A stretch of 64,000 nucleotides of DNA. It comes from Sulfitobacter albidus. Its GTDB lineage: Bacteria; Pseudomonadota; Alphaproteobacteria; Rhodobacterales; Rhodobacteraceae. The notes beneath the pieces were generated by a model. The model was not told the DNA's origin, searched no databases, and saw only the letters and a list, made by a program, of their open reading frames with translations. The first letter of the stretch is position 1. Every line of letters starts with the position of its first letter. Positions 7,565-56,398 of the stretch are shown here, one piece after another. The stretch spans positions 1,360,501-1,424,500 of the forward strand of contig NZ_CP073581.1 of NCBI RefSeq assembly GCF_018200035.1. Direction: 5' to 3'. The position numbers and the translations under genes are program-made.

Positions 7565-7842
7565 GGCATCCCGGTGATCGTATAGTCCCGCGCGATGCCT
7601 GCGGTCTCGCGTGCCCAGTCGGAGGCGGCGGCGCGGCTCTGATGTGCCTCAAAGGCTGCTGGGCTGTCGAATTGCTCGGCCACAGTCCAGACCATCGGAT
7701 CGTCGGTTGCGGTGACCTCAAAGCTGATGCAGCCCGGCTCGGCCCGCGTCAGGCGGATGTGCTCAGACAGGGCCGCGCGCACCCGCGCGGCCTCTTCCCC
7801 GGTCGTGCAGGTAAGCGTGCCGTTCAGGGTGACTATTCCCAT
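7561..7842 (-). CDS. Antibiotic biosynthesis monooxygenase (ABM) domain protein
   Basis: A 93-residue protein matching the single ABM fold (dimeric alpha-beta barrel). It has the typical progression: a first strand ([12 protein letters not shown]), a helix of about 18 residues, [15 protein letters not shown] and [18 protein letters not shown]. Proteins of this type include small quinol monooxygenases such as YgiN and heme-degrading enzymes, but many have no known substrate. The gene overlaps guaA by 10 bases at its start and the EamA permease by 4 bases at its end, so it sits inside a tightly coupled three-gene unit. Confidence 0.85.
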
Positions 7843-9395
7843 TCGATGGTGCCCGGAGGTTTTGAAGTGATGTCATAGGTGACGCGGTTGATGCCCGGCA
7901 CTTCGTTGATGATGCGCGTCGCCGTCTCGCCCAGAAATTCGTGGCTGAACGGGTAGTAGTCGGCGGTCATGCCGTCCACGCTTGTGACCGCCCGCAGCGC
8001 GCAGGCGAAATCATAGGTGCGCCCGTCGCCCATGACGCCCACGGTGCGCACCGGCAGGATCGCGCAGAACGCCTGCCAGATTTCGTCATAAAGCCCGTGT
8101 TTGCGGATCTGGTCGATGTAGACCGCGTCGGCCTCGCGCAGGATATCAAGCTTTTCGCGGGTGATCTCACCGGGGCAGCGGATGGCAAGCCCCGGACCGG
8201 GGAAGGGGTGGCGCCCGATAAACGACGCGGGCAGGCCCAGCTCGCGCCCCAGCGCGCGGACCTCGTCCTTGAACAGCTCGCGCAGCGGTTCGACCAGTTT
8301 CAGACCCATCTTTTCGGGCAGGCCACCGACGTTGTGGTGGCTCTTGATCGTCACCGAAGGGCCACCCGAAAAGCTGACCGATTCGATGACATCTGGGTAA
8401 AGCGTACCCTGGGCGAGGAATTCGGCCCCCTCGATGTCCTTGGCGTATTTCTGGAACACGTCGATGAAGAGCCGCCCGATGATCTTGCGCTTGGTCTCGG
8501 GGTCGGATTGGCCCTCAAGTTCGCCCAGAAACAGATCAACCTCGTCGGCGTGGATCACATGCAGGTTCATGTGGTCGCGGAACATGGTCACGACCTCGTC
8601 GGCTTCGTTCTTGCGCAGCAGGCCGTGGTCGACGAACACACAGGTCAGCTGATCTCCGATAGCCTCGTGGATGAGGGCCGCGGTGACCGAGCTGTCGACG
8701 CCGCCGGACAGGCCGCAGATCACACGTTTGTCGCCGACCTCTTCGCGGATGCGGCCCACGGCCTCTTCGCGGTAGGCGCCCATGGTCCAATCGCCGTCGA
8801 AACCCGCGAGACGCACAAAGTTTTCGTAAAACTTTGCCCCGTTCGGCGTGTGGTGCACTTCGGGGTGGAATTGCACGGCGTAGAAGCGGCGCGCGGTGTC
8901 GGCGGTGATGGCGAAAGGCGCGTGGGGCGAGGTGCCGTAGACCTCAAAACCGGGGGCGATGGCGCTGACGTGATCGCCGTGGCTCATCCAGACCTGCTCG
9001 CGCTCGGTCAGGAACCATCCCTCCAGCAGTTCGGTCTGCTTGTCCGTGGGGGTGACGTAGGCGCGGCCGAATTCCTTGGTACCGACGCCGGTTTCCACCT
9101 TGCCGCCCAGCATGTGCATCATCACCTGCTGGCCATAGCAGATGCCCAGCACAGGCACGCCCAGATCGAATACCGCCTGCGGCGGGCGGGGCGATCCGTC
9201 GTCGATGACCGAGGCAGGGCCGCCCGACAGGATCACCGCCTTGGGCGCGAAATCCGCCAGAAAGGCTTCGGTTACGGTCTGGAAGGGGTGGATTTCGCAG
9301 TAGACATTCAGCTCACGCAGGCGGCGCGCGATCAGCTGCGTCACCTGGCTGCCGAAATCAATGATGAGGAGGCGGTCATGGGAGGTCTGTGTCAT
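7833..9395 (-). CDS. guaA: GMP synthase (glutamine-hydrolysing)
   Basis: Converts XMP to GMP using glutamine and ATP. The 520-residue protein has all three domains. The class I glutamine amidotransferase domain (about 1-200) shows the nucleophile in GICYGQQVM and the His-Glu pair in FHPEVHHT. The ATP pyrophosphatase domain has the PP-loop [10 protein letters not shown]. The C-terminal dimerisation domain ends in the usual PPGTIEWE. The start [15 protein letters not shown] gives the standard N-terminus; upstream in-frame sequence is not conserved-looking. The leader carries a strong hairpin at 9453-9484. The divergent neighbour is an MttB-like gene. Confidence 0.98.
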
Positions 9396-30458: not shown

Positions 30459-30698
30459 ATGGCGTCTGATAGACAGAATCTTCAGGATGCGTTCCTGAAC
30501 CACGTGCGCAAAACAAAGGTGCCGGTGACGATCTTTCTGATCAACGGCGTGAAATTGCAGGGCGTGATCACATGGTTTGACAACTTCTGCGTCCTGCTGC
30601 GCCGCGACGGGCAGAGCCAGCTTGTCTACAAGCACGCGATTTCGACCATCATGCCCAGCCAGCCGATCAGCCTTTACGAGGGTGAAGAGGCTTCTTGA
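30459..30698 (+). CDS. hfq: RNA chaperone Hfq
   Basis: A 79-residue Sm-like protein that forms hexamers and pairs small RNAs with mRNAs. The Sm1 motif ([20 protein letters not shown]) and the Sm2 motif with YKHAIST are complete, and the N-terminus [11 protein letters not shown] is typical. The C-terminal tail is short, as usual in alphaproteobacteria. The start lies in an A-rich leader (about 30410-30458) with GGAAGAA as ribosome site. The hfq stop overlaps the TTG start of hflX, the classical hfq-hflX arrangement. Confidence 0.97.
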
Positions 30699-45363: not shown

Positions 45364-46011
45364 TTAGTCCCCGGCCTCTGCGGTAAGCTCCGCGATGACC
45401 TTGGCCCAAAGCTCGGGCGGCTGTGCGCCGGGCACCGCGTGTTGGCCGCCGACGATGAAGGTCGGCACCGAATTCACGCCCATCGAGCGGCTGTGCGCGT
45501 CGCGCTGGCGGATGTCGTCGAGGTCACTGTCGGTGCCCAGAAGGCGGGTGACGACGCTTGCGTCCATCTCGATCGCATCGGCGATGTCTGCCAGCACCTC
45601 GGCATCCCCGATATCGCGACATTCGACAAAATAGGCTTTGAACAGCGCGGAGACGGCGGCAGTCTGGCGCCCCTCAATGCCGGCCCAATGGATCAGCCGG
45701 TGGGCGTTGATCGTGTTGGGGGTGCGCTTCATCCCCTCGAAATCGATCTTGAGCCCGGCTTTTTCAGCATGCTCTACCACCGGCGCATAAGCGCGCACGG
45801 CGCCTTCCTTGCCGCCGAATTTACCCTCCAGATAGGCGCGGCGGTCCATCCCCTCGGCGGGCATATCGGGGTTGAGCTGGAAGGGATGCCATTCAATCTC
45901 GAACGGGTGATCGGGGTGCTGGGACAGGGCGCGGTCCAGATGCGCCTTGCCGATATAGCACCACGGGCAGATCGGGTCTGACATGATGTCGAGCTTGATG
46001 GTCTGGGTCAT
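45364..46011 (-). CDS. DsbA family oxidoreductase (FrnE type)
   Basis: A 215-residue cytoplasmic thioredoxin-fold protein of the FrnE/2-hydroxychromene-2-carboxylate isomerase-like group: start TIKLDIMSDPICPWCYIGK with the CPWC redox motif, WHPFQLNPDMPAEGMDRR, and SVPTFIVGG with the cis-proline near the C-terminus. No signal peptide, so it does not act as a classical periplasmic DsbA. Its start overlaps the stop of the acyl-CoA synthetase gene by 4 bases, so both are made together; a joint pathway is plausible but not identified. Confidence 0.9.
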   Translation of the reverse strand: MTQTIKLDIMSDPICPWCYIGKAHLDRALSQHPDHPFEIEWHPFQLNPDMPAEGMDRRAYLEGKFGGKEGAVRAYAPVVEHAEKAGLKIDFEGMKRTPNTINAHRLIHWAGIEGRQTAAVSALFKAYFVECRDIGDAEVLADIADAIEMDASVVTRLLGTDSDLDDIRQRDAHSRSMGVNSVPTFIVGGQHAVPGAQPPELWAKVIAELTAEAGD

Positions 46012-47516
46012 GTGTTTTCCTCGAAACGCTGGCGCAGCTGGCGGCGCAGCAATTTGCCGTTGGCCCCGGTGGGAAGGGCATCGGTATGAATATAAAGGCG
46101 CGGCTGTTTGTAGCGCGCCAGATTGGCCTCGGCATATCGGTGCAGGGCGTCCTCGTCCAGTGGCGCGGCGGCGGTATAGTAGGCCGCGATCACGCTGGCC
46201 CCCGCCTTGACAGTGACTTCCACGGCGGCAGCACCGGTGATGTCGGGATGCGCGGTCAGGCATTGCTCAACCTCAAGCGGGGAGACGCGGAAGCCCCCGG
46301 CGTTCATCATATCGTCGTCGCGGCCCAGGTACGTGATCTGGCCCTGCGCATCCATCACCGCGCGGTCGCCGGTCAAAAACCAGTCGTCGGCGAACTTCGC
46401 CGCCGTCTCATCGGGGGCGTCCAGATAGCCGCGCATCAGACCCGGATCTGTGCGGTGCACGGCGATGGTACCCTCTGCGCCGCGCGCCACGGGGGTGCCA
46501 CCTTCGATCAGCGCAAGGCGCCGTCCCGGCTGCGCGCATCCCAGCGCGCCGGGGGCGGCGGGTCGCGCGGGGCTGGCCGAGATGAAGGTGGAGCATTCCG
46601 ACATCCCGTAAGCCTCAAAGATCGGCGTGCCGGTGGCGTCCTGCCACGCCGCGCGCGTCACATCAGCCAGCTTTTCGCCCGCGCTCAACCCGTGGCGCAG
46701 ACGGGGCAGCGCAGGGACGGGCGCGCGGGTCAGCTGGCGGTAGACTCCGGGTGCTGCGGCAAAGATCGTGGCACCGCTGTCGGCCATCAGTGTCGGCAAA
46801 TCCGTGGCCTTCGTACCGGGCGCGGGAATCAGCGCCGTGGCACCCATGGTCCAGGGATCCATGAGCCCGGTGCCCAGCGTATAGGTCCAGTTAAAGGCGC
46901 CCGCGTGCATCACCCGGTCGTCGGCGCGCAGACCGTACCAGCCGTCAAACATCATTTGCCGCGCCCAGATCGCGCGATGCGCGTGCTCCACCGCGCGGGG
47001 GCGCCCGGACGTGCCGGAGGTGTAGATGATATAGCCGGGGCGATCCGCATCGCCCATGTGCACGTCGGCCGCGGGCAGGGCGCGCATGGCGCGCAGATCC
47101 TCGCGCGAAATACTGCGTGGATCGTCGGGGCAGGGCACATCCGGGTCGCTGAGGATCACACGCGGATCGAGTGCCGCGATCATCGGGGCGACTTCGCGCG
47201 TGGTGAGCGCGGCAGCGGTCGGGACGGGCACCGCACCGATGGCCAGCGCGGCAAGGTAGGCGAGCGGGAAATCCACCGTATTGCCCAACCGCATCAGCAC
47301 CCGGTCACCGGGGGTTACGCCCGCGCGCAAAAGCCCCGTACCGGTGCCCAGAACGGCCGCGTGCAGATCGGCGTAGCTCCAGACTTCGGGGGCAGCACCG
47401 ACGATGCACAGCGCCGTCTTGTCGCCCAGACGTGGCGCGTGGCGCAGCACATGGGCGGCCATGTTGAACGGCGCGGGGCAGGGCGGTTGCGGGCTGGGGT
47501 CTGTCAACGACTGCAT
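46008..47516 (-). CDS. AMP-binding acyl-CoA synthetase/benzoate-CoA ligase-like enzyme
   Basis: A 502-residue ANL-superfamily adenylating enzyme. Visible motifs: the phosphate loop YTSGTSGRPRAVEHAHR, YGMSECSTF, the hinge-region LTGDRAVMDAQGQITYLGRD followed by DDMMNAGGFRVSPLEVE, and the catalytic lysine in GANGKLLRRQLR. It would activate a carboxylic acid to the acyl-AMP and then acyl-CoA; the acid (aromatic or short/medium chain) is unknown. The start at 47516 gives a normal N-terminus. It is coupled to the DsbA-like gene downstream and diverges, across 67 bases, from an XRE-cupin regulator that probably controls the pair. Confidence 0.9.
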   Translation of the reverse strand: MQSLTDPSPQPPCPAPFNMAAHVLRHAPRLGDKTALCIVGAAPEVWSYADLHAAVLGTGTGLLRAGVTPGDRVLMRLGNTVDFPLAYLAALAIGAVPVPTAAALTTREVAPMIAALDPRVILSDPDVPCPDDPRSISREDLRAMRALPAADVHMGDADRPGYIIYTSGTSGRPRAVEHAHRAIWARQMMFDGWYGLRADDRVMHAGAFNWTYTLGTGLMDPWTMGATALIPAPGTKATDLPTLMADSGATIFAAAPGVYRQLTRAPVPALPRLRHGLSAGEKLADVTRAAWQDATGTPIFEAYGMSECSTFISASPARPAAPGALGCAQPGRRLALIEGGTPVARGAEGTIAVHRTDPGLMRGYLDAPDETAAKFADDWFLTGDRAVMDAQGQITYLGRDDDMMNAGGFRVSPLEVEQCLTAHPDITGAAAVEVTVKAGASVIAAYYTAAAPLDEDALHRYAEANLARYKQPRLYIHTDALPTGANGKLLRRQLRQRFEENT

Positions 47517-47583
47517 GGGTTTAGTCGCTAGCCGCTGCGCGCGCGCGTTGCAAGGCGCAGGCGCTGAGCCTATAGATATCTCA

Positions 47584-48207
47584 ATGACAGATGATGCCCC
47601 CAAATCCATGATCCAGCTCGCCCGCGAGGACGGCGCACACCATACGGTGCCGCCCGTCGATCTGGGCGCGCGTGTGCGCGAGCTGCGCAAGGCGCGCGCC
47701 TGGACACTTGAGCAGGCGGCAAGTCAGGCGGGCCTTGCCCGATCCACCCTGTCCAAGATCGAAAACGGGCAGATGTCGCCCACCTATGACGCGCTGAAAA
47801 AGCTGGCCGTGGGGCTTGAGATCACGATCCCGCAGCTTTTTACGCCGCCTGCGTCGGATCAGATCAACGGGCGCATGGCGCTGACGCGGATGGGTGAGGG
47901 GACGGCAAAGGCCACGACCACATACGAGCACGAGCTGCTGGCCGACAGCTTGCGCAAAAAGCAGATGCTGCCCTATCGCGCCCGCATCCGTGCCCGCGCG
48001 ATGGAGGAGTTCGACGGCTGGGTGCGCCACGACGGCGAAGAATTCCTGTACGTGCTGACCGGCGTGGTCAAACTCTTTACCGAGTTTTACGAGCCCATCG
48101 AGATGCGGCGCGGCGACAGCGCGTATTATGACGCGGCGATGGGGCACAACGTGATCTCCACCTCCGCCGAGGATGCGACCATCCTGTGGGTGACGTCACT
48201 CGTCTAG
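47584..48207 (+). CDS. XRE-family regulator with C-terminal cupin domain
   Basis: A 207-residue transcription factor. The Cro/C1-type helix-turn-helix covers about residues 30-85 (LGARVRELRKARAWTLEQAA then SQAGLARSTLSKIENGQMSP), and the cupin barrel covers about 120-205 (HDGEEFLYVLTGVVKLFTEF, with EPIEMRRGDSAYYDAAMGH). Regulators of this build usually sense a small metabolite in the cupin. The start could also be Met9 (47608); no strong ribosome site is visible. It is divergent from the acyl-CoA synthetase, the probable target. Its end overlaps the aquaporin-family gene by 12 bases. Confidence 0.9.
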   Translation: MTDDAPKSMIQLAREDGAHHTVPPVDLGARVRELRKARAWTLEQAASQAGLARSTLSKIENGQMSPTYDALKKLAVGLEITIPQLFTPPASDQINGRMALTRMGEGTAKATTTYEHELLADSLRKKQMLPYRARIRARAMEEFDGWVRHDGEEFLYVLTGVVKLFTEFYEPIEMRRGDSAYYDAAMGHNVISTSAEDATILWVTSLV

Positions 48208-48846
48208 CAGGGGCCGCAGCGTGGCGTGCGCGATGAACACGGCCAAGATCTGCATGACGACGAACATCACGATATGACCTGGATAGATGCCCGCGAACGT
48301 GTCCGAGACCCCGCGCGCCAGTGTCACTGCCGGATTGGCAAAGCTGGTCGATGAGGTGAACCAATAGGCTCCGGTGATATAGAGCGCGACAAGCACCGGC
48401 ACCGCGTCGGGGCGCGACCGCAGCCCGCCAAAGATCACGAACATGAGGCCAAGCGTGGCGAGGATCTCCGACAGCCACTGCGCGGGGCCGGTGCGGTGCA
48501 GCGTTTCGCTGAGCTGAAGGATCGGCAGATCGAACATCGCGTGCGCGGCCCAGACGCCAAGGAATGCGCCAGTGATCTGGACGGCCACATAGCCCGCGCA
48601 GGCAGGGCGCGTGATCTGCCCGCGCAGCAGAAACGCGAGGCTGACCGCCGGGTTGAAATGCGCGCCTGAAATCGGCCCCAGAACGGTGATGATGACAAAA
48701 AGCATGCACCCCGTCGCAATCGCATTGGCCAAGAGCGTGACCGCCGCATTTCCCTGCGCCAAAGACTCCCCCATGATCCCCGACCCGATGACCGCGATCA
48801 GCAGCATCGCACTGCCCAAACCTTCGGCGCAGAGTTTACGGATCAT
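48196..48846 (-). CDS. MIP family (aquaporin/glycerol facilitator) channel
   Basis: A 216-residue membrane protein with six spans and both NPA half-helices: SGAHFNPAVSLAF and SSTSFANPAVTLAR. Membership of the MIP family is clear. The arginine after the second NPA box (NPAVTLAR) is conserved, as in aquaporins. Water, glycerol, arsenite or another small solute could be the cargo; nothing nearby (no ars or glp genes) decides. It ends overlapping the XRE-cupin gene and lies about 40 bases from the end of the binding-protein gene. Confidence 0.92.
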   Translation of the reverse strand: MIRKLCAEGLGSAMLLIAVIGSGIMGESLAQGNAAVTLLANAIATGCMLFVIITVLGPISGAHFNPAVSLAFLLRGQITRPACAGYVAVQITGAFLGVWAAHAMFDLPILQLSETLHRTGPAQWLSEILATLGLMFVIFGGLRSRPDAVPVLVALYITGAYWFTSSTSFANPAVTLARGVSDTFAGIYPGHIVMFVVMQILAVFIAHATLRPLLDE

Positions 48847-48888
48847 CGGCTATCTCTCATGTCTCATCCTGGCGGGTTGGCGGGGCGA

Positions 48889-50706
48889 CTACTCCGCCTC
48901 CCACCACCACACGCCGGGCATCCATTCCGGCCCGTCGCCGTAGATCGGCAGCGTGTCGGGGTATTTCATCTCGCTGACGTGGGCGATACGCCCCTCGGTA
49001 TAGGACCAGAAGGGGATCACAAAGCGTCCGGCGGTCAGGATCCGGTCAAGCGCGCGGGTGGCCGCGATGAAATCCGCCGATTCGCGGGCGGTCAGCATCG
49101 TTTCGATCATCGCGTCGATGGCTGGATTGCGCGCGCCCATCAGATTGCGCGACCCTTCCTGATCGGCGGCCTCGCTGCCCCAATAGAACTTCTGCTCATT
49201 TCCCGGGCTCAGCGACAGCGCACGGCGAAAGGTCGTCATGTCGAAATCAAAACTGCCGGTGCGTGCGAAATACTGTGCGTCATCCACCGCGTCGATGGTG
49301 ACGGCAATGCCCAACCGTTCAAGCGCCTGACCGTAGAGTTCGGCGATGGCGATGTCTTCGGTGCTGCCTTTCTGGATCAGGATGGTAAAGGCGACGGGCG
49401 TGCCGTCCCCGCGCCGCAGCGTGCCGTCCTCGACGCTGAGCCCCGCGGCCTGCAACTGCGCTGTTGCGGCCCGCAGCCCCGCACGGTTGCGCGCAGAGCC
49501 ATCGGCGACAGGCAGCGCGTAGCCTTCGATCGTGCCGGGCGGCAGGGTATCCTGATAGGCCGACAGCATTTCGGCAACGCGGCCCACGGCGGGGCCGGGC
49601 ACATAGCCCAGAACGGAATTGGAAAAATAGGACGTGATGCGCGGCTGCGCGCCGCCGGTCAGCGTGTCGTTGATGTATTCGAAATTGAACGCCTGGATCA
49701 GCGCATCGCGCACGCGCCAATCGTCAAAGGGCGCGCGCCGGGTGTTCATCACGAATCCCGTCATGCCGGACGGTTTTTCGTGTGGCACGACCGTCTTGAC
49801 GATATCGCCGCGCGTCACGGCAGGGAACGTATATTGGCTGGCCCATGTCTCGGCGTTGAATTCGCGCACGGCAGAGATTTCGCCGGCCTTGAACCCTTCG
49901 AACAGAACCTTGCTATCGCCGTAGAAATCCAGCGTAATTTCGTCAAAGTTGTGAGTTCCGCGCCGGAAGGGGACATCCGCGCCCCAATAGTCGGGATTGC
50001 GGGTCAGCTTGACGAAGCGCCCGGTCTCGTAGTCGCTGACCGTGTAGGGCCCGGAGCCGACGGGCACCTCTTGCACGGGGGCATTGGCGAAATCGCGCCC
50101 CTCCCACTGTGCGCGGCTGATGATGGGACGCATACCCGCGAGCAGGGCAAGCTCGCGGTTGGGGGTGTTGAAGGTCAGGCGGACGCTGCGCTCTGCGGTT
50201 TGCTCGATCCGCTCGATCTGGGTGTAGAGCGTGCGGTAGCGCGGGTGGCCCTCGGTGCCCAGAAGCTCGAACGAAAAGATCACATCGTCCACCGTCAGCG
50301 GGCTGCCGTCCGAAAATGTCGTGCCGTCGCGCAGGGTGAATTCGACCCAGCTCCGCTCTGCGTCCGTCTCGACCGTCTCGGCCAGAAGACCGTAAAGCGT
50401 GAAGGGTTCGTCAAATGAGCGGCCCATAAGCGTCTCATGGGTGAAAAAGCCAAGCTGCCACGGCACTGTGCCCTTGAGCACAAACGGATTGAGACTGTCG
50501 AAGCCGCCGGTATTGCCCAGCGTGATCACCCCGCCCTTGGGCGCATCAGGGTTGACATAGGGCAGCGCGCCGAAATCGGCGGGCAGGGCGGGCGCCCCAT
50601 ACATCGAAATCCCGTGCTGCGGGGAAGCGCCAGCGGCGATTCCCCAGAGAATCAGTGAAGAAACGGCGACAACGCCCCGCGTCTTCTGGAAAAAATCAGA
50701 AGTCAT
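48889..50706 (-). CDS. Extracellular solute-binding protein, family 5 (oligopeptide type), orphan
   Basis: A 605-residue periplasmic binding protein with a signal peptide (TRGVVAVSSLILWGIAAGA). The mature part starts YGAPALPADFGALPYVNPDAP, a YejA-like N-terminus, and continues with family 5 marks such as LAETVETDAERSWVEFTLRD and VDDVIFSFELL. Such proteins feed oligopeptides or similar cargo to an ABC importer. No permease or ATPase gene lies nearby, so it either uses an importer encoded elsewhere or acts as a receptor. The upstream region carries an A-rich leader, and beyond it, on the other strand, a candidate small RNA. Confidence 0.92.
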   Translation of the reverse strand: MTSDFFQKTRGVVAVSSLILWGIAAGASPQHGISMYGAPALPADFGALPYVNPDAPKGGVITLGNTGGFDSLNPFVLKGTVPWQLGFFTHETLMGRSFDEPFTLYGLLAETVETDAERSWVEFTLRDGTTFSDGSPLTVDDVIFSFELLGTEGHPRYRTLYTQIERIEQTAERSVRLTFNTPNRELALLAGMRPIISRAQWEGRDFANAPVQEVPVGSGPYTVSDYETGRFVKLTRNPDYWGADVPFRRGTHNFDEITLDFYGDSKVLFEGFKAGEISAVREFNAETWASQYTFPAVTRGDIVKTVVPHEKPSGMTGFVMNTRRAPFDDWRVRDALIQAFNFEYINDTLTGGAQPRITSYFSNSVLGYVPGPAVGRVAEMLSAYQDTLPPGTIEGYALPVADGSARNRAGLRAATAQLQAAGLSVEDGTLRRGDGTPVAFTILIQKGSTEDIAIAELYGQALERLGIAVTIDAVDDAQYFARTGSFDFDMTTFRRALSLSPGNEQKFYWGSEAADQEGSRNLMGARNPAIDAMIETMLTARESADFIAATRALDRILTAGRFVIPFWSYTEGRIAHVSEMKYPDTLPIYGDGPEWMPGVWWWEAE

Positions 50707-50786
50707 TTTCGAAACAATCCTGCGCTGCCCTTTTTTTTATTACTTAAAGCTTTAGCGCGCCCGTCTGGATGGCGCAAACTTTATAC

Positions 50787-50815
50787 TTGGACTCACGCGG
50801 TTAGTTGAGTATACA
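50787..50815 (+). promoter_or_regulatory. Strong sigma-70-type promoter of the candidate small RNA
   Basis: TTGGAC (50787-50792) and TATACA (50810-50815) are separated by exactly 17 bases, the ideal spacing, and each differs from the consensus in one position. Transcription would begin near 50822. The downstream unit ends at a perfect intrinsic terminator, so the promoter and terminator define a short transcript rather than a gene. Confidence 0.65.
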
Positions 50816-50821
50816 TAAGGC

Positions 50822-50898
50822 ACTGCTCGATAGGTTTCTTGCCTGTATGAAACCTGCCTCAATAACTTGACGCCCGCCTTGTGCGGGCGTTTTTTTTT
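50822..50898 (+). ncRNA. Candidate small RNA (about 77 nt) with intrinsic terminator
   Basis: Between the promoter at 50787 and the bdhA gene at 51010 lies a short unit without an open reading frame. It has a 5' hairpin with arms AGGTTTC (50832-50838) and GAAACCT (50849-50855) and a 10-base loop, a single-stranded middle (about 50856-50870), and a terminator with arms CGCCCGC/GCGGGCG and nine Ts (50871-50898). This 5' hairpin, free linker, strong terminator with long U tail is the usual plan of an Hfq-binding small RNA, and hfq is present in this genome. Alternative: the untranslated leader of bdhA with an attenuator. The name and targets are unknown to me. Confidence 0.55.
50871..50898 (+). 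terminator. Intrinsic terminator
   Basis: Arms CGCCCGC and GCGGGCG pair perfectly around a 5-base loop (CTTGT) and are followed by nine Ts (50890-50898). It is the clearest rho-independent terminator in the window and lies about 110 bases before bdhA, with no plus-strand protein gene upstream for about 2.6 kb. Confidence 0.85.
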
Positions 50899-51009
50899 GG
50901 CGCTGACAGGGCTGTGTTCTGCACGCAGGAACGTTTCGGCCCCCCGCGCATTGGCATTCTAGCTGCATCGCGGCATAAAACGTCAAACTCACAGGACAGG
51001 AACGCATCC

Positions 51010-51795
51010 ATGGCACTTACCTACGATCTCAGCGGAAAGACCGCGATCATCACGGGCTCGAACTCCGGCATCGGGCTGGGGATCGCGCAGCAGCTGGCGC
51101 AGGCGGGGGCCGATGTGGTTCTCAACTCCTTCACCGACCGCAAGGAAGATCACGCGCTTGCCGAAGAGATCGCCAATGTCACGGGGGTTAAGGCCCGCTA
51201 TATCAAGGCCGATATGTCCAAGGGCGAGGAATGCCGCAAGCTGATCGAAGAGGCCGGCGCCTGCGATATCCTGATCAACAACGCGGGCATCCAGCATGTG
51301 GAGCCCATCGACAAATTCCCGACCGAAAAATGGGATGCGATCATCGCGATAAACCTCAGCTCGGCCTTTCATACCACCGCCGCCGCCCTGCCGATGATGC
51401 GCAAGGCGGGTTGGGGCCGGGTGATCAATATCTCCTCGGCGCATGGTCTGACGGCCTCGCCCTATAAATCCGCCTATATCGCGGCCAAGCACGGGATCAT
51501 CGGCCTGACCAAGACCACCGCGCTTGAAACCGCGGAGGAACCGATTACCGCAAACGCGATCTGCCCCGGCTACGTGCTGACGCCGCTTGTCGAATCGCAG
51601 ATCCCCGACACCATGAAGGAATACGACATGGGCCGCGAGGAGGTGATCAAGAACGTGATGCTCAAGCGTCAACCGTCCAAGGAATTCGCGACGGTGGAGC
51701 AGATGGGCGGCACGGCGGCTTTCCTGTGCTCGGCCGCGGCGGATCAGATCACCGGCACGCACATCAGCGTCGACGGCGGCTGGACCGCCCTTTGA
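51010..51795 (+). CDS. bdhA: D-3-hydroxybutyrate dehydrogenase
   Basis: Short-chain dehydrogenase that interconverts 3-hydroxybutyrate and acetoacetate with NAD, a step in use of the storage polymer PHB. The 261-residue protein has the cofactor motif TGSNSGIGLGIA, the NNAGIQHVEP segment typical of BdhA, the catalytic YKSAYIAAKHG (Tyr-xxx-Lys) and ICPGYVLTPLVESQIPD, also BdhA-like. The start at 51010 follows ACAGGACAGGA. A PHB-related role is supported by the patatin-like gene 1.8 kb downstream. A candidate small RNA or attenuator lies upstream. Confidence 0.93.
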   Translation: MALTYDLSGKTAIITGSNSGIGLGIAQQLAQAGADVVLNSFTDRKEDHALAEEIANVTGVKARYIKADMSKGEECRKLIEEAGACDILINNAGIQHVEPIDKFPTEKWDAIIAINLSSAFHTTAAALPMMRKAGWGRVINISSAHGLTASPYKSAYIAAKHGIIGLTKTTALETAEEPITANAICPGYVLTPLVESQIPDTMKEYDMGREEVIKNVMLKRQPSKEFATVEQMGGTAAFLCSAAADQITGTHISVDGGWTAL

Positions 51796-51836
51796 GCGCG
51801 ACGGCCCCTGACCGCTTTCGGTCAAGGGCCAAGGCG

Positions 51837-53471
51837 CTATTCGGCGGCCAAGGCGGTGCGCAGGCCCTGCGTCGTCAGAAACCCGTCGATTTGCGCGCGC
51901 ACGACTTCGGCAATAGGCAACGTCTGGCCCAGATCGGCGAAGGTCATGGCCGTCACTGTGCCCGCCGTCTCTTCCTTGTCGTCAATCCGGCGCCAATCGG
52001 CGTCAAGGTGATCCGACAGATGAACCTGCCCCACGCATTCCCCGGCCCGGTAGTGGCGGATCACCGGGTGGATGAAGGGATCGGGCTCGCCCTCGTAAGC
52101 GGTATGCGCGCGCTTGACGTGGGTGGGCGTGTCACCAAAATTGCCGAACTCAAGCGTCACGACCAGCGCATCCTCGCTCAGGAACGCAGGGTTTTCCGCC
52201 AGCCATTGTACGGGCATGTCGCGATAGCGTGTGCCCGCCTGCGGCCCACCAACGTGGATCACGTCGCCCAGAAAGCCCGGCTGCAAAAACATCGCCGAAC
52301 TCAGGCTGATGCGGTCGATGATGGTATCGACCAGCGCGGGGCCGTCGACGTCGATGCGATCACTGGGCAAGGCGGCCCCCGTCGCGCGTTCGGCGATGAA
52401 ATGCGCAAGTGCTGCGATGTTATGGCGAAACCCGTGCACGAATCCCGACATGGTTTTCTTGAAATCGCGGCTTTGCATGATCGTGCCCGCAAACCACAGG
52501 TTCGGCGTGGATTTCGCCTCCCACTGCGGGGTCATTTCGGGGAATTTGTCGAAATGGCGCAGGGCGGGGCGGATGTCTGCGTCGAGGATGCTCGCATCCC
52601 AGCGAAAGCCCGTGCAGCAGATGACATGATCGTAGCGCAGAACGATCTCGTGGTCTTCGGCGGCGGTCATGCGCGCGTGCACAAGGTAGGTATCGCCGTC
52701 CCGCTCGATGCGGACCGGGTTTGCGTCGACCACGGCGTTTTGCGATTTCAGCTGGTAGGTGTCGATGAATTGCGTGTTCACCGCGCGCACGTGGCCGACA
52801 AAATGCGTGTTCCAGGCAAATTTGATCGGGTTCGGGCTCATCACATGGATGGCTGCCGCGTGTTCGATCATCTTTTGTGCGGTCTCGAAGGCGGCGTTGC
52901 CCTTGCCGAGGATCAGCACACGCTTGTTGTCGAACCTTTCCTGCGTGGCGTCGAAATCCATGTAATTTTCGGTCAGCTCGACGCCCTCGACATCCGGCAG
53001 CCATGGTTGCGTGACACCGGAGGAGACGACCACGTGACGCGCGTCAAAGCGGCGCCCGTCCGCACAGGCGAGGGTGAACACATCGTCGGTTTTCGAAATC
53101 CGGCAGACATCGGCATTAAGCACGATCTCCTCCTCGAGGGTCTCGGCAAACCGCTCAAGATAGCGCACGTAGTCGTCAGCCTTGGGAAAGTATCTTTTGG
53201 TGAAGTCGCGCACCTCCAGCCCCTCGTCGTTGAGCAGGCTGTTCCAGTCGTAGCGCAGCCGCGCGTCCGCGTCGTCAAGCCCGGTGTGCACCTTGTTGAT
53301 CGAGATAAAATTGCGGTGGCGCGGGAACTTACGGAAAAATCCGCTGACGCCGTCGCCACGCTCAAGCAGCTTTACCCGCAGGCCTTTCTTGCGCAGAAGA
53401 TACGCCGCCTGCAATCCCGCCGGGCCTGCGCCCACAATGCAGCAATCCAGAATGTCGGTTTCTTGTGTCAT
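51837..53471 (-). CDS. FAD/NAD(P)-binding monooxygenase-like oxidoreductase
   Basis: A 544-residue flavoprotein. The FAD dinucleotide motif is CCIVGAGPAGLQAAYLLRKK at the N-terminus, the second (NADPH) motif is VLILGKGNAAFETAQKMIEH, and a ATG-type end motif appears in VICCTGFRW. FRKFPRHRNFISINKVHTGL is like FOXRED2-type and flavin monooxygenase-like proteins. The C-terminal 130 residues (from about 410) lack a domain known to me. The start at 53471 follows GGGGATGGA. It faces the end of bdhA and diverges from the patatin-like gene; substrate unknown. Confidence 0.8.
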   Translation of the reverse strand: MTQETDILDCCIVGAGPAGLQAAYLLRKKGLRVKLLERGDGVSGFFRKFPRHRNFISINKVHTGLDDADARLRYDWNSLLNDEGLEVRDFTKRYFPKADDYVRYLERFAETLEEEIVLNADVCRISKTDDVFTLACADGRRFDARHVVVSSGVTQPWLPDVEGVELTENYMDFDATQERFDNKRVLILGKGNAAFETAQKMIEHAAAIHVMSPNPIKFAWNTHFVGHVRAVNTQFIDTYQLKSQNAVVDANPVRIERDGDTYLVHARMTAAEDHEIVLRYDHVICCTGFRWDASILDADIRPALRHFDKFPEMTPQWEAKSTPNLWFAGTIMQSRDFKKTMSGFVHGFRHNIAALAHFIAERATGAALPSDRIDVDGPALVDTIIDRISLSSAMFLQPGFLGDVIHVGGPQAGTRYRDMPVQWLAENPAFLSEDALVVTLEFGNFGDTPTHVKRAHTAYEGEPDPFIHPVIRHYRAGECVGQVHLSDHLDADWRRIDDKEETAGTVTAMTFADLGQTLPIAEVVRAQIDGFLTTQGLRTALAAE

Positions 53472-53520
53472 GGTCCATCCCCAGCTAGACAACGCCTGAG
53501 CGCTCCGTGCCATGAACGAT

Positions 53521-53553
53521 ATTCCCGTTTGACGTGTCAACCGATACGGGAAT
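53521..53553. promoter_or_regulatory. Nested inverted repeat between oxidoreductase and patatin-like genes
   Basis: Outer arms ATTCCCGT (53521-53528) and ACGGGAAT (53546-53553) enclose an inner inverted repeat TTGAC-GT-GTCAA (53529-53540). It lies in the 160-base divergent region, about 50 bases before the oxidoreductase start and 80 before the patatin-like start. The element could be an operator or a hairpin. The inner half resembles FNR/CRP-family half sites only loosely, and the spacing is wrong for those. Confidence 0.45.
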
Positions 53554-53630
53554 TTTTATTACATAATCGAACGATTCCGCAGGGTGTCGATCACGCAGCG
53601 GGCACGCCCCGCCAAAAAGGAAAATAACCA

Positions 53631-54665
53631 ATGGCCAGCAAGAAGCAGATCAACCTCGCCCTTCAGGGCGGCGGCGCGCATGGGGCCTTTACCTGGGGCG
53701 TGCTGGACCGTCTCTTGCAGGAAGACGATCTGGAGGTCTGCGGGATTTCCGGCACCTCGGCGGGGGCATTGAATGGCGCGGCCCTGAAGGCGGGGATGGT
53801 TACGGGGGGGCGCGAGGGGGCGCGCGAAAACCTTGATTGGCTCTGGGCGCAGGTGGCGGGCACCGATGATCTGCGCATGGCGGATTGGATGGCGCCCTTT
53901 GGCCTCAGGGCGCTGAGCACGCAGATCGAGAATTCGCTGCCCTATATCGTTGGTGACAACCTCACGCGGGTGATGTCGCCCTATGGCTACGGGCCGTTCT
54001 ACGCCAACCCGCTGCGCGACATCGTGACCAAGTTCAACTACGATCCGATCTGCAACGGGCAGGCGCCGCTGTTCTTTGTCGGCGCCACACGCGTGCGCAA
54101 CGGCAAGATCCGCGTGTTCAGCGGGGATGAGATCGGACCCGAGGCGCTCATGGCCTCCGCCTGCCTGCCGACGGTGTTTCAGGCGGTCGAGATCTTTGAC
54201 AAGACGACCGACCGGGTCGAGGCGTTCTGGGACGGTGGATTTACCGGTAATCCCGCGCTTTTCCCGCTGTTCGAGGCCAATTTGCCGGACGATATCGTCA
54301 TCATCAACATCAACCCGCTTGAGCGCGACGAGGTGCCGACGACGCCGCAGCAGATCCAGAATCGCATCAACGAGATCAGCTTCAACTCAAGCCTGTTGCG
54401 GGAGCTGCGCGCGATTGAATTCGTGCAGCGCCTGATCGACGAGGGCACGATGCCAAGCGATCGCATGAGCCGGGTGCGGATCCACATGATTGCCGATGAC
54501 GCGTTGATGGCGCAACTGTCGGCGGCGACGAAACTGGTGCCCAATCCGGCGGTCATCAAAAAGCTCAAGGAAGCGGGCATCGTCGCTGCCGAAAGCTTCC
54601 TGCGCGACGATATCGACAACATCGGAAAGAAAAGCAGCGTCGATCTGCGCGCGATGTTCGCCTGA
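53631..54665 (+). CDS. Patatin-like phospholipase, possible PHB-granule-associated hydrolase
   Basis: A 344-residue serine hydrolase with a Ser-Asp dyad. The oxyanion region LALQGGGAHGAFTWGVLDRL, the nucleophile elbow GISGTSAGALNG and the aspartate motif DGGFTGNPAL are all in place. No signal peptide. Patatin proteins hydrolyse lipids; some alpha- and betaproteobacterial members act on intracellular PHB granules, and the nearby 3-hydroxybutyrate dehydrogenase makes that reading attractive but not proved. AAAAAGGAAAA precedes the ATG. A nested inverted repeat sits upstream. Confidence 0.88.
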   Translation: MASKKQINLALQGGGAHGAFTWGVLDRLLQEDDLEVCGISGTSAGALNGAALKAGMVTGGREGARENLDWLWAQVAGTDDLRMADWMAPFGLRALSTQIENSLPYIVGDNLTRVMSPYGYGPFYANPLRDIVTKFNYDPICNGQAPLFFVGATRVRNGKIRVFSGDEIGPEALMASACLPTVFQAVEIFDKTTDRVEAFWDGGFTGNPALFPLFEANLPDDIVIININPLERDEVPTTPQQIQNRINEISFNSSLLRELRAIEFVQRLIDEGTMPSDRMSRVRIHMIADDALMAQLSAATKLVPNPAVIKKLKEAGIVAAESFLRDDIDNIGKKSSVDLRAMFA

Positions 54666-54668
54666 GCG

Positions 54669-55408
54669 TCAGCCGCGCGCGTTCAGATCTGCAATCGGCG
54701 GCGCGCCATTCTCAAACGCCTTGGCATTGGGGTACACAAGGCCCGCCGAAATCACCAGTTTCGCGGCATCCTCCACGCTCATGTCGAGGGTGATGACATC
54801 ACTGGCCGGCAGGAACAGCAAAAAACCGGATGTGGGGTTCGGCGTGGTCGGCAGAAAGATCGACATCATCGCCGTATCTCCGCCGGATTTCTGCGCAATC
54901 TCACCCTTGGCGGTGGTCGAGACAAATCCGATGGCCCAGATGCCGCGGCGCGGATATTCGATCAGGCAGGCGGTCTCGAAACTGCGCTCCGACTGGGCAA
55001 AGATCGTCTCGGAGATCTGTTTGATGCCCGAATAGATCGAGCGCACGACCGGCGTCCGCTCCACAAGGCTTTCGCCGAAGCGGATGAAGGACCGGCCGAT
55101 CAGCCCCTTGGCCATCCACCCGATGAGGCAGGTGAACAGCAGGAAGATTACTACGCCGATGCCGCGAATGTTGATCTGCACCGACGGATCGAGGCCCAGA
55201 TAGGTCTGGATCAGATGATCGGGCTGCCACGCGTTCGGCACAAGCGGCAGCACGAATCCGTCGATCCAGCCCACAACGCTCCAGATCAGCCAGATGGTGA
55301 GGCCGACGGGGGCGATCACGATAAGACCGGTCAGAAAATTTGCCCTGAGCCCGGCGATAAGCCCCCGCCGGGGCGGAGGGGCGGGATCTGGGTCGAAGGG
55401 GTATTCAT
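54669..55408 (-). pseudogene. DUF502 membrane protein with an apparent N-terminal frameshift
   Basis: The frame from 55319 to 54669 encodes a DUF502 protein (APVGLTIWLIWSVVGWIDGF; GIGVVIFLLFTCLIGWMAKG; TPVVRSIYSGIKQISETIF). The same frame continues upstream with a natural N-terminus, PFDPDPAPPPRRGLIAGLRA then NFLTGLIV, but has no ATG or GTG before a stop. An ATG at 55408 reads MNT P and would join if one base were added at the GGGG/CCCC run (55398-55401), giving MNTPFDPDP. Length from 55408 is one base short of a multiple of three. A GTG start at 55319 is the unshifted alternative but would cut into the first membrane span. DUF502 function is unknown. Confidence 0.7.
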
Positions 55409-55486
55409 CGGAATGCGGCGCCTGTCTCGTTCATGCCCCATAGCTAAGCGCAAGCGCCATCGGCCACAATGGCTGCGGCCGGCAAA

Positions 55487-56398
55487 TCAGCCCTTGTCGC
55501 GCAACTCGATGGCGATCTGGGCCGCAAATTGGGCATTGTTACGCACCAATGCGATATTGGCCGTAAGCGACGCACCTTCCGTCAGCTCAAAAATGCGTTG
55601 CAGCAGATAGGGGGTGACGGATTTGCCGGTGATGCCCGCGCGCGTCGCGTCGTTCTGGGCCTGCGCGATGATCGGGGCCAGCGTTTCGGCGGCAATCTCA
55701 GCGTCAGCGGGGATCGGATTGGCCACCAGCTGCCCACCGGGCAGGCCAAGGGCCGCGCGCATCCGGTGCGCCCGTGCGATGTCGGCTGGATCATCCATGC
55801 GCAGCGGCGCCTTGAGTTTCGATCCGCGCGACCAAAAGGCCGGGAACATGTCCTGCCCTACGGCAATGACCGGCACGCCCTGCGTTTCCAGCACTTCCAG
55901 CGTCTTGGCCACGTCGAGGATCGCCTTGGCGCCGGCGGCGACAACAGTCACGGGGGTTTGCGCCAGCTCCATCAGATCGGCAGAGATGTCAAAGCTGTTC
56001 TCGGCCCCCCGGTGCACCCCGCCGATGCCGCCCGTGGCAAAGACATGGATGCCCGCAAGATGCGCCGCGATCATCGTGGCGGCCACGGTCGTGGCCCCGG
56101 TGCCGCCGGTGGCGATGCAGGCGGCCATGTCCGCGCGGCTGAGCTTGGCCACGCCCTTGGCCTGCGACAGTGCTTCGAGCTGGTCTGCGTTCAGACCGAT
56201 GTGCAGCGTGCCGTCGATGACGGCGATGGTGGCGGGCACGGCGCCCTTGGCACGGACATCCGCCTCGACCTGTCGCGCCACCTCAAGGTTTTGCGGATGC
56301 GGCATGCCGTGGGTGATGATCGTGCTTTCGAGGGCGACGATGGCGGCACCTTCGGCAAGGGCGGTCGTGACCTCGTCGGAGCGGACGATGGGGATCAT
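55487..56398 (-). CDS. psuG: Pseudouridine-5'-phosphate glycosidase
   Basis: Breaks the C-C bond of pseudouridine 5'-phosphate to give uracil and ribose 5-phosphate. The 303-residue protein shows the family marks IVALESTIITHGMPHPQN, TGGTGATTVAATMI, FATGGIGGVHRGAE and VIAVGQDMFPAFWSRGSKL. It is full length. The start overlaps the stop of the kinase gene upstream by 4 bases, so both enzymes of the pathway are coupled. Confidence 0.95.
   Translation of the reverse strand: MIPIVRSDEVTTALAEGAAIVALESTIITHGMPHPQNLEVARQVEADVRAKGAVPATIAVIDGTLHIGLNADQLEALSQAKGVAKLSRADMAACIATGGTGATTVAATMIAAHLAGIHVFATGGIGGVHRGAENSFDISADLMELAQTPVTVVAAGAKAILDVAKTLEVLETQGVPVIAVGQDMFPAFWSRGSKLKAPLRMDDPADIARAHRMRAALGLPGGQLVANPIPADAEIAAETLAPIIAQAQNDATRAGITGKSVTPYLLQRIFELTEGASLTANIALVRNNAQFAAQIAIELRDKG

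Follow-up and report, generated by a model that had tools for sequence, protein, structure and literature searches.

In Sulfitobacter albidus, the space between a divergent gene for an ABC-transporter solute-binding protein (48889–50706, minus strand; no curated cut-off reached) and bdhA, encoding 3-hydroxybutyrate dehydrogenase (51010–51795, plus strand; TIGR01963 at 362.8 bits, cut-off 307.05), raises the question of whether a small RNA of its own is made there and, if so, on which message it acts. Coordinates refer to the window, the whole stretch of 64 000 nucleotides that was analysed, unless another contig is named. A preliminary description had read a promoter, a stem and a terminator in this space, and all of the parts are present: TTGGAC at 50787–50792, a 17-base spacer, TATACA at 50810–50815, the stem and nine T. 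We place the RNA, proposed to be the Sulfitobacter StsR, on the plus strand at 50822–50898, with its 5' end inferred from a conservation boundary and its 3' end within the T-run. Its length would be 72–77 nt counted from A50822 to the T-run, 72 nt corresponding to an end at 50893. The order of parts is a 5' hairpin (50832–50855; seven pairs, AGGTTTC with GAAACCT, around the loop TTGCCTGTAT), a linker and an intrinsic terminator (50869–50898), the last consisting of a GC-rich stem at 50869–50891 and nine T at 50890–50898. The predicted fold of 50820–50899 reaches -26.2 kcal/mol, compared with -15.3 ± 2.8 for shuffled sequences (z -3.9). The terminator ranked first among the 10 terminator-like sites that a terminator scan found in 46000–56000, a number of sites not above the shuffle expectation of 7.7 ± 2.8.

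The RNA is widely conserved within its family and was found as a whole only there. A search with a 136-base region against 60 genomes recovered it in all 35 other Sulfitobacter genomes, while the 24 genomes from other families gave two terminator-only matches and 22 blanks. With an 81-base RNA query, 289 of 295 family genomes (288 of 294 genera; own genome included) contained the RNA, and the weakest best E-value among the matches listed was 2.1e-15. Two of the six genomes without a match are at least 90% complete (G213, 92%; G191, 90%), and a repeated search of both gave weak partial matches only; no sRNA was found in either, owing to gene loss or an assembly gap. At the level of the class, whole-RNA matches occurred in three of 210 genomes, all three being family members and one of them our own; two more genomes of the class (G440 and G468) matched over the terminator only, and neither these nor the two terminator-only matches of the first search (G040 and G045) were counted as homologues. 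The RNA is also present in all 13 named genomes chosen from 80 named loci, among them Cereibacter johrii, and Sulfitobacter sediminilitoris (L142, G364) carries it as well.

For a closer comparison we assembled 100 loci, made up of the 30 best from the same-genus search, the 30 best from the family search, the 13 named genomes and 27 of 30 further loci, with the weakest matches included. Two loci without the RNA (L231 and L232) were dropped from the set, and duplication of our own window and of one congener left 98 distinct stretches, 97 of which were used to build a profile (L225, which carries an insert, was left out). The 39 nt from A50822 through the linker CCTC are kept in 95–97 of the 97 distinct family sequences. 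Immediately before A50822 stands C in 79 sequences and T in the other 18, and still further upstream conservation drops until the promoter is reached; this boundary suggests that transcription starts at A50822, the A of ACTGCTCG. The terminator stem is variable in sequence across the profile. A covariance check on 56 sequences (the window plus 55 distinct loci taken from beyond the first 30, excluding L060, which lies at a contig end) showed that seven of its eight pairs have changed on both sides, with 99.5% of cells pairing compared with 92.3% in shuffles. The seven pairs of the 5' hairpin show no variation at all in the same 56 sequences, and hence gain no covariation support of their own. 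In the genome that was left out of the profile (G285, minus strand, around 1018–1084 of contig C18), an insert of some 30 bases separates ACTGCTCGA from TAGGTTTC and leaves the 5' block and the hairpin block intact, a natural test of the modularity of the sRNA.

We judge the RNA to be real because it is conserved, in 35 of 35 congeners and 289 of 295 family genomes, with near-invariance beginning at A50822 and a compensated terminator. The proposal of a genuine sRNA bracketed by a promoter and a terminator of its own is thereby upheld, and these comparisons give strong support to a stand-alone, trans-acting sRNA. The statement that the element has no reading frame needs correction, since a short frame with its ATG in the hairpin (MKPASIT*) is intact in 57 of the 100 loci and extended or altered elsewhere. 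A small peptide was rejected as the product; the end of the frame is not kept and, by eye, a good ribosome site is missing at the usual spacing. Rfam at gathering score returned nothing in the window except a tRNA, and the RNA is therefore probably unannotated in most family genomes. Matches at low threshold in 50600–51030, which include asX2 (opposite strand), the Leu leader, Hrs13, mmgR and SorY, lie far below their gathering scores. Two of these families, mmgR/suhB (RF00519) and SorY (RF02651), are alphaproteobacterial sRNAs of similar size that likewise end in a terminator, and both were rejected, mmgR/suhB scoring 22.7 bits (gathering score 41) and SorY 16.1 bits (gathering score 111).

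The promoter had been described as near-consensus with a 17-base spacer. The spacer length is right, but the match to the sigma-70 consensus is only 7 of 12 positions (three of six at -35, four of six at -10), the site is absent from the promoter-scan list, and the sequence is RpoH-like instead. From 50786 the window reads CTTGGAC, 17 bases and TATACAT, following the pattern CTTGG-17-TATA. In the -35 element CTTGGA (50786–50791), the first five positions are kept as C in 88, T in 97, T in 91, G in 86 and G in 83 of the 97 sequences, and in the -10 element TATACA (50810–50815) the first four are kept as T in 94, A in 95, T in 95 and A in 88. Judged by these letters, the promoter fits the RpoH type and is conserved throughout the profile. 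The TTG of the -35 element is reported to be important for both RpoHI and RpoHII promoters in the sections consulted of a Rhodobacter sphaeroides study (PMC3441632), whose promoter rule also holds that C at -9 favours RpoHII over RpoHI. The base at -9 is C here, which by analogy would favour RpoHII. Our own genome encodes two RpoH-like sigma factors, one scoring 368.7 bits against the sigma-32 family (cut-off 323.1) and a second at 263.8 bits, below the cut-off; the two are plausibly RpoHI and RpoHII. Just 5' of the -35 box lies a further element, CAAACTTT (50775–50782, plus strand), each of whose eight positions is kept in 83–93 of the 97 distinct family sequences, so that its conservation nearly equals that of the promoter itself. 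It may be an UP element or the site of a regulator.

A search of our own genome with 50740–50905 returned, besides the gene itself, an exact 18-base match at C1:1829910–1829927 (G000). The stretch concerned, TGCCTGTATGAAACCTGC (50840–50857, plus strand), is the main seed of the RNA, and its perfect complement lies antisense within the mraZ leader, 199 nt before the start codon, and is unique in the genome. The gene behind mraZ there resembles rsmH. Of nine whole genomes searched, eight contain the exact 14-nt complement twice and no more, once in the gene itself (antisense) and once elsewhere; this second place was confirmed as the mraZ leader in our own genome, in S. sediminilitoris and in G210. 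In the ninth, C. johrii, the gene is the only exact place, and the mraZ leader site, found on two contigs, carries one mismatch. When one mismatch was allowed throughout, the nine genomes gave nine further places (C. johrii leader sites excluded) compared with five for a backward control pattern; in our own genome the gene and the mraZ leader remained the only two.

We then examined 30 mraZ leaders, from the 13 named genomes and 17 others, each taken as the 450 bases before the mraZ protein match and thus chosen independently of the site. The core CATACAGGC is present in 26 of the 30, compared with nine of 6000 shuffled leaders, and is altered in the other four; 25 of the 30 match the seed at 14 or more of 18 positions (15 of 6000 shuffles). 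Four leaders (G354, G240, G135 and G213) match the 18-nt seed at no more than 12 positions, a level reached by 839 of 6000 shuffles. One of these belongs to a genome without a detected sRNA, G213, which keeps both CATACAGGC and CGAGCAG in its mraZ leader, the full site matching at only 12 of 18 positions. The motif CGAGCAG is complementary to RNA nucleotides 2–8, a 5' seed reading CTGCTCG (50823–50829, plus strand). It occurs in 24 of the 30 leaders, compared with 352 of 6000 shuffles, and in 19 of those 24 it stands 43–50 nt after the start of CATACAGGC. From these counts and from duplex prediction we propose CGAGCAG as a second contact for the 5' end of the sRNA. Because the surrounding part of the leader is conserved in any case, conservation of the motif does not by itself prove such a contact, and covariation cannot decide the matter because the 5' end of the RNA is nearly invariant. 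As far as complementarity can tell, the partner of the RNA is the mraZ/dcw leader rather than a flanking gene.

The leader itself also appears to have a recurrent structure. In 27 of the 30 leaders the site is predicted to lie within a stem of five or more pairs between its two flanks, compared with 371 of 1200 folds with shuffled flanks (31%), and in 25 of the 30 within a stem of nine or more, compared with 220 of 1200 (18%), the control consisting of single-base shuffles of the flanks. This result depends on the folding window: the C. johrii stem is seen in one window and absent in another, and C. johrii is among the three leaders without an enclosing stem in the 30-leader test. The sequences of the enclosing stem differ widely between genera, which suggests that the predicted stem is kept by compensation. 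In Sulfitobacter the mraZ leader is about 200 nt or more in length and has a strong 14-bp hairpin followed by TTTT before mraZ; under its rules, the terminator scan listed no terminator in this leader. In one locus (L153, around 7729–7930, minus strand), the 14-bp hairpin of the mraZ leader ends in just four T. Read-through from the mraZ leader into dcw may be frequent.

In R. sphaeroides the mraZ leader yields an abundant sRNA, UpsM, of 206 nt within a 268-nt leader, which is cut to leave a 130-nt 3' fragment, according to the sections consulted of PMC5089854. UpsM and the long mraZ leader of Rhodobacteraceae (PMC5089854) thus correspond to the partner and not to the element described here, and a leader with a strong hairpin is found in Sulfitobacter too. 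The 5' region of UpsM, R1, is called hardly conserved in those sections (PMC5089854), whereas in our comparison the site and, mostly, the predicted enclosing stem recur. If C. johrii shares the R. sphaeroides geometry, the site would fall at about nt 48–65 and the cut near nt 76, directly behind the pairing.

The best-fitting known RNA is StsR (RSs0827) of Rhodobacter/Cereibacter sphaeroides, and we are confident that the element is the Sulfitobacter copy of stsR, the likeness being one of published traits. The sections consulted of PMC8307010, PMC11354728 and PMC8625941 describe StsR as a 72-nt, Hfq-bound RNA dependent on RpoHI/RpoHII, which pairs with UpsM and the dcw 5' UTR, alters their structure and lets RNase E cut, whereupon dcw mRNA and growth fall. 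Stationary phase, iron limitation and singlet oxygen each induce it, as stated in the consulted parts of these papers and of PMC3413700 and PMC3688512. Those StsR traits that are visible in sequence are found in the window RNA, which shares a length of about 72 nt, an RpoH-type promoter, an intrinsic terminator and complementarity to the mraZ/dcw (UpsM) leader, the last at 18 of 18 positions in our own genome. StsR differs in belonging to another genus, and its pairing with rpoE, a published secondary target in the literature sections consulted, was not recovered for the present RNA: in five genomes, between 9 and 92 of 100 shuffles did as well as the predicted rpoE duplex or better (a crude test over ~650 nt).

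R. sphaeroides 2.4.1 is absent from the 80 named loci, and the homologue in C. johrii was compared instead. C. johrii is a sister species of R. sphaeroides; its PufM is 100% identical to the PufM query. Its RNA shares the core, lies between the same two genes and is 76 nt long to the last T, and its terminator stem and promoter spacer differ in sequence from those of the window. A literature text search for four core strings of the RNA found no paper printing them, and a search for the neighbours of RSP_0827 in R. sphaeroides found only RSP_0829 (lactate dehydrogenase). The consulted parts of the sRNA catalogues of Ruegeria pomeroyi (PMC4809877) and Paracoccus denitrificans (PMC5107571) contain no sRNA linkable to the window RNA.

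The preliminary description had also pointed out that the window encodes Hfq, and a motif search on the translated window confirms hfq at approximately 30459–30698 on the plus strand. StsR binds Hfq in R. sphaeroides, as reported in the consulted part of PMC8307010. Together with the U-tail and the presence of hfq in the genome, this analogy makes Hfq dependence of the Sulfitobacter RNA plausible.

Other explanations of the locus are considerably less probable. One is that the RNA is a separate kind of sRNA, which has the mraZ leader as a partner in common with the real StsR, encoded by another gene. Such a reading would agree with an assignment made by traits instead of letters and with the failure to recover rpoE, and we still regard it as improbable, since length, RpoH-type promoter and target all fit StsR and a second conserved sRNA directed against the same leader would be a coincidence. 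Moreover, when C. johrii is searched for the 14-nt leader-site complement with one mismatch allowed, solely this gene and the mraZ leader (two contigs) are found.

The remaining explanations turn on the flanking genes. The binding-protein gene is the upstream neighbour in 98 of the 100 loci and bdhA lies downstream in 85, as counted by translated comparison in fetched flanks of up to 1.5 kb, with some contigs ending nearby; by these counts, the position of the locus is old. That bdhA follows on the same strand, mostly 140–300 nt from the RNA 5' end, could mean that the RNA is a leader or attenuator whose transcript normally continues into bdhA under the control of the terminator, an alternative that the preliminary description had raised. 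The full range of that distance in the 85 loci is 114–1427 nt, no bdhA was found in the fetched flanks of the other 15 even though the RNA is kept, the near-invariance spans the RNA itself, and the long complementarity is to mraZ, in trans; we consider an attenuator very improbable. Equally small is the chance that the RNA is nutrient-responsive and acts chiefly on the adjoining binding-protein gene or on bdhA, as had been hinted from the identity of these genes. The synteny with the binding-protein gene and the response of StsR to iron limitation in R. sphaeroides (PMC3413700, sections consulted) would suit this idea, but the search of our own genome listed no additional match within the window, and when one mismatch is allowed the 14-nt seed leads there to the gene and the mraZ leader only. 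The flanking genes are conserved neighbours and lend no support to nutrient control, the long complementarity being found in the mraZ/dcw leader some 420 kb away. A T-rich stretch, GCCCTTTTTTTTATT (50727–50737), adjoins the divergent binding-protein gene upstream and has counterparts in congeners; it perhaps belongs to the promoter or leader of that gene.

Returning to the StsR assignment, we postulate that an RpoH sigma factor would transcribe Sulfitobacter stsR under stress or in stationary phase, and that StsR would slow cell division under stress by pairing at the start of the division-gene message. The mraZ leader is predicted to present the StsR site in a hairpin loop, and the 5' end of the sRNA, CUGCUCG, is predicted to be able to reach CGAGCAG as well, the second conserved complement, which lies some 45 nt beyond that site. 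If events follow those in R. sphaeroides, Hfq-aided pairing would alter the leader structure so that RNase E cuts UpsM and the dcw leader, and this cleavage would lower dcw mRNA and slow growth. A broader reading, which we put forward tentatively and at slightly less than even chances, is that cell division throughout the family is under an ancient RNA–RNA switch made up of StsR and the UpsM/mraZ leader. The site would lie in the loop of a compensated leader stem, StsR would dock by its hairpin loop, and its near-invariant 5' end would clamp CGAGCAG; the two contacts and the RNA's own stem would then account for most of the near-invariant 39 nt.

Family-wide conservation is not shown in the consulted parts of the StsR literature, and the breadth and near-invariance of the RNA may be new, as may the second conserved leader complement and the stem that encloses the StsR site. 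With a near-invariant seed, one long complement in the whole genome and a leader site that is itself conserved, the mechanism lends itself directly to testing by point mutations in a tractable laboratory roseobacter. An RNA circuit that links stress to cell division, described in one phototroph, would extend to nearly all sampled genera of this large family, with its sequence almost frozen.
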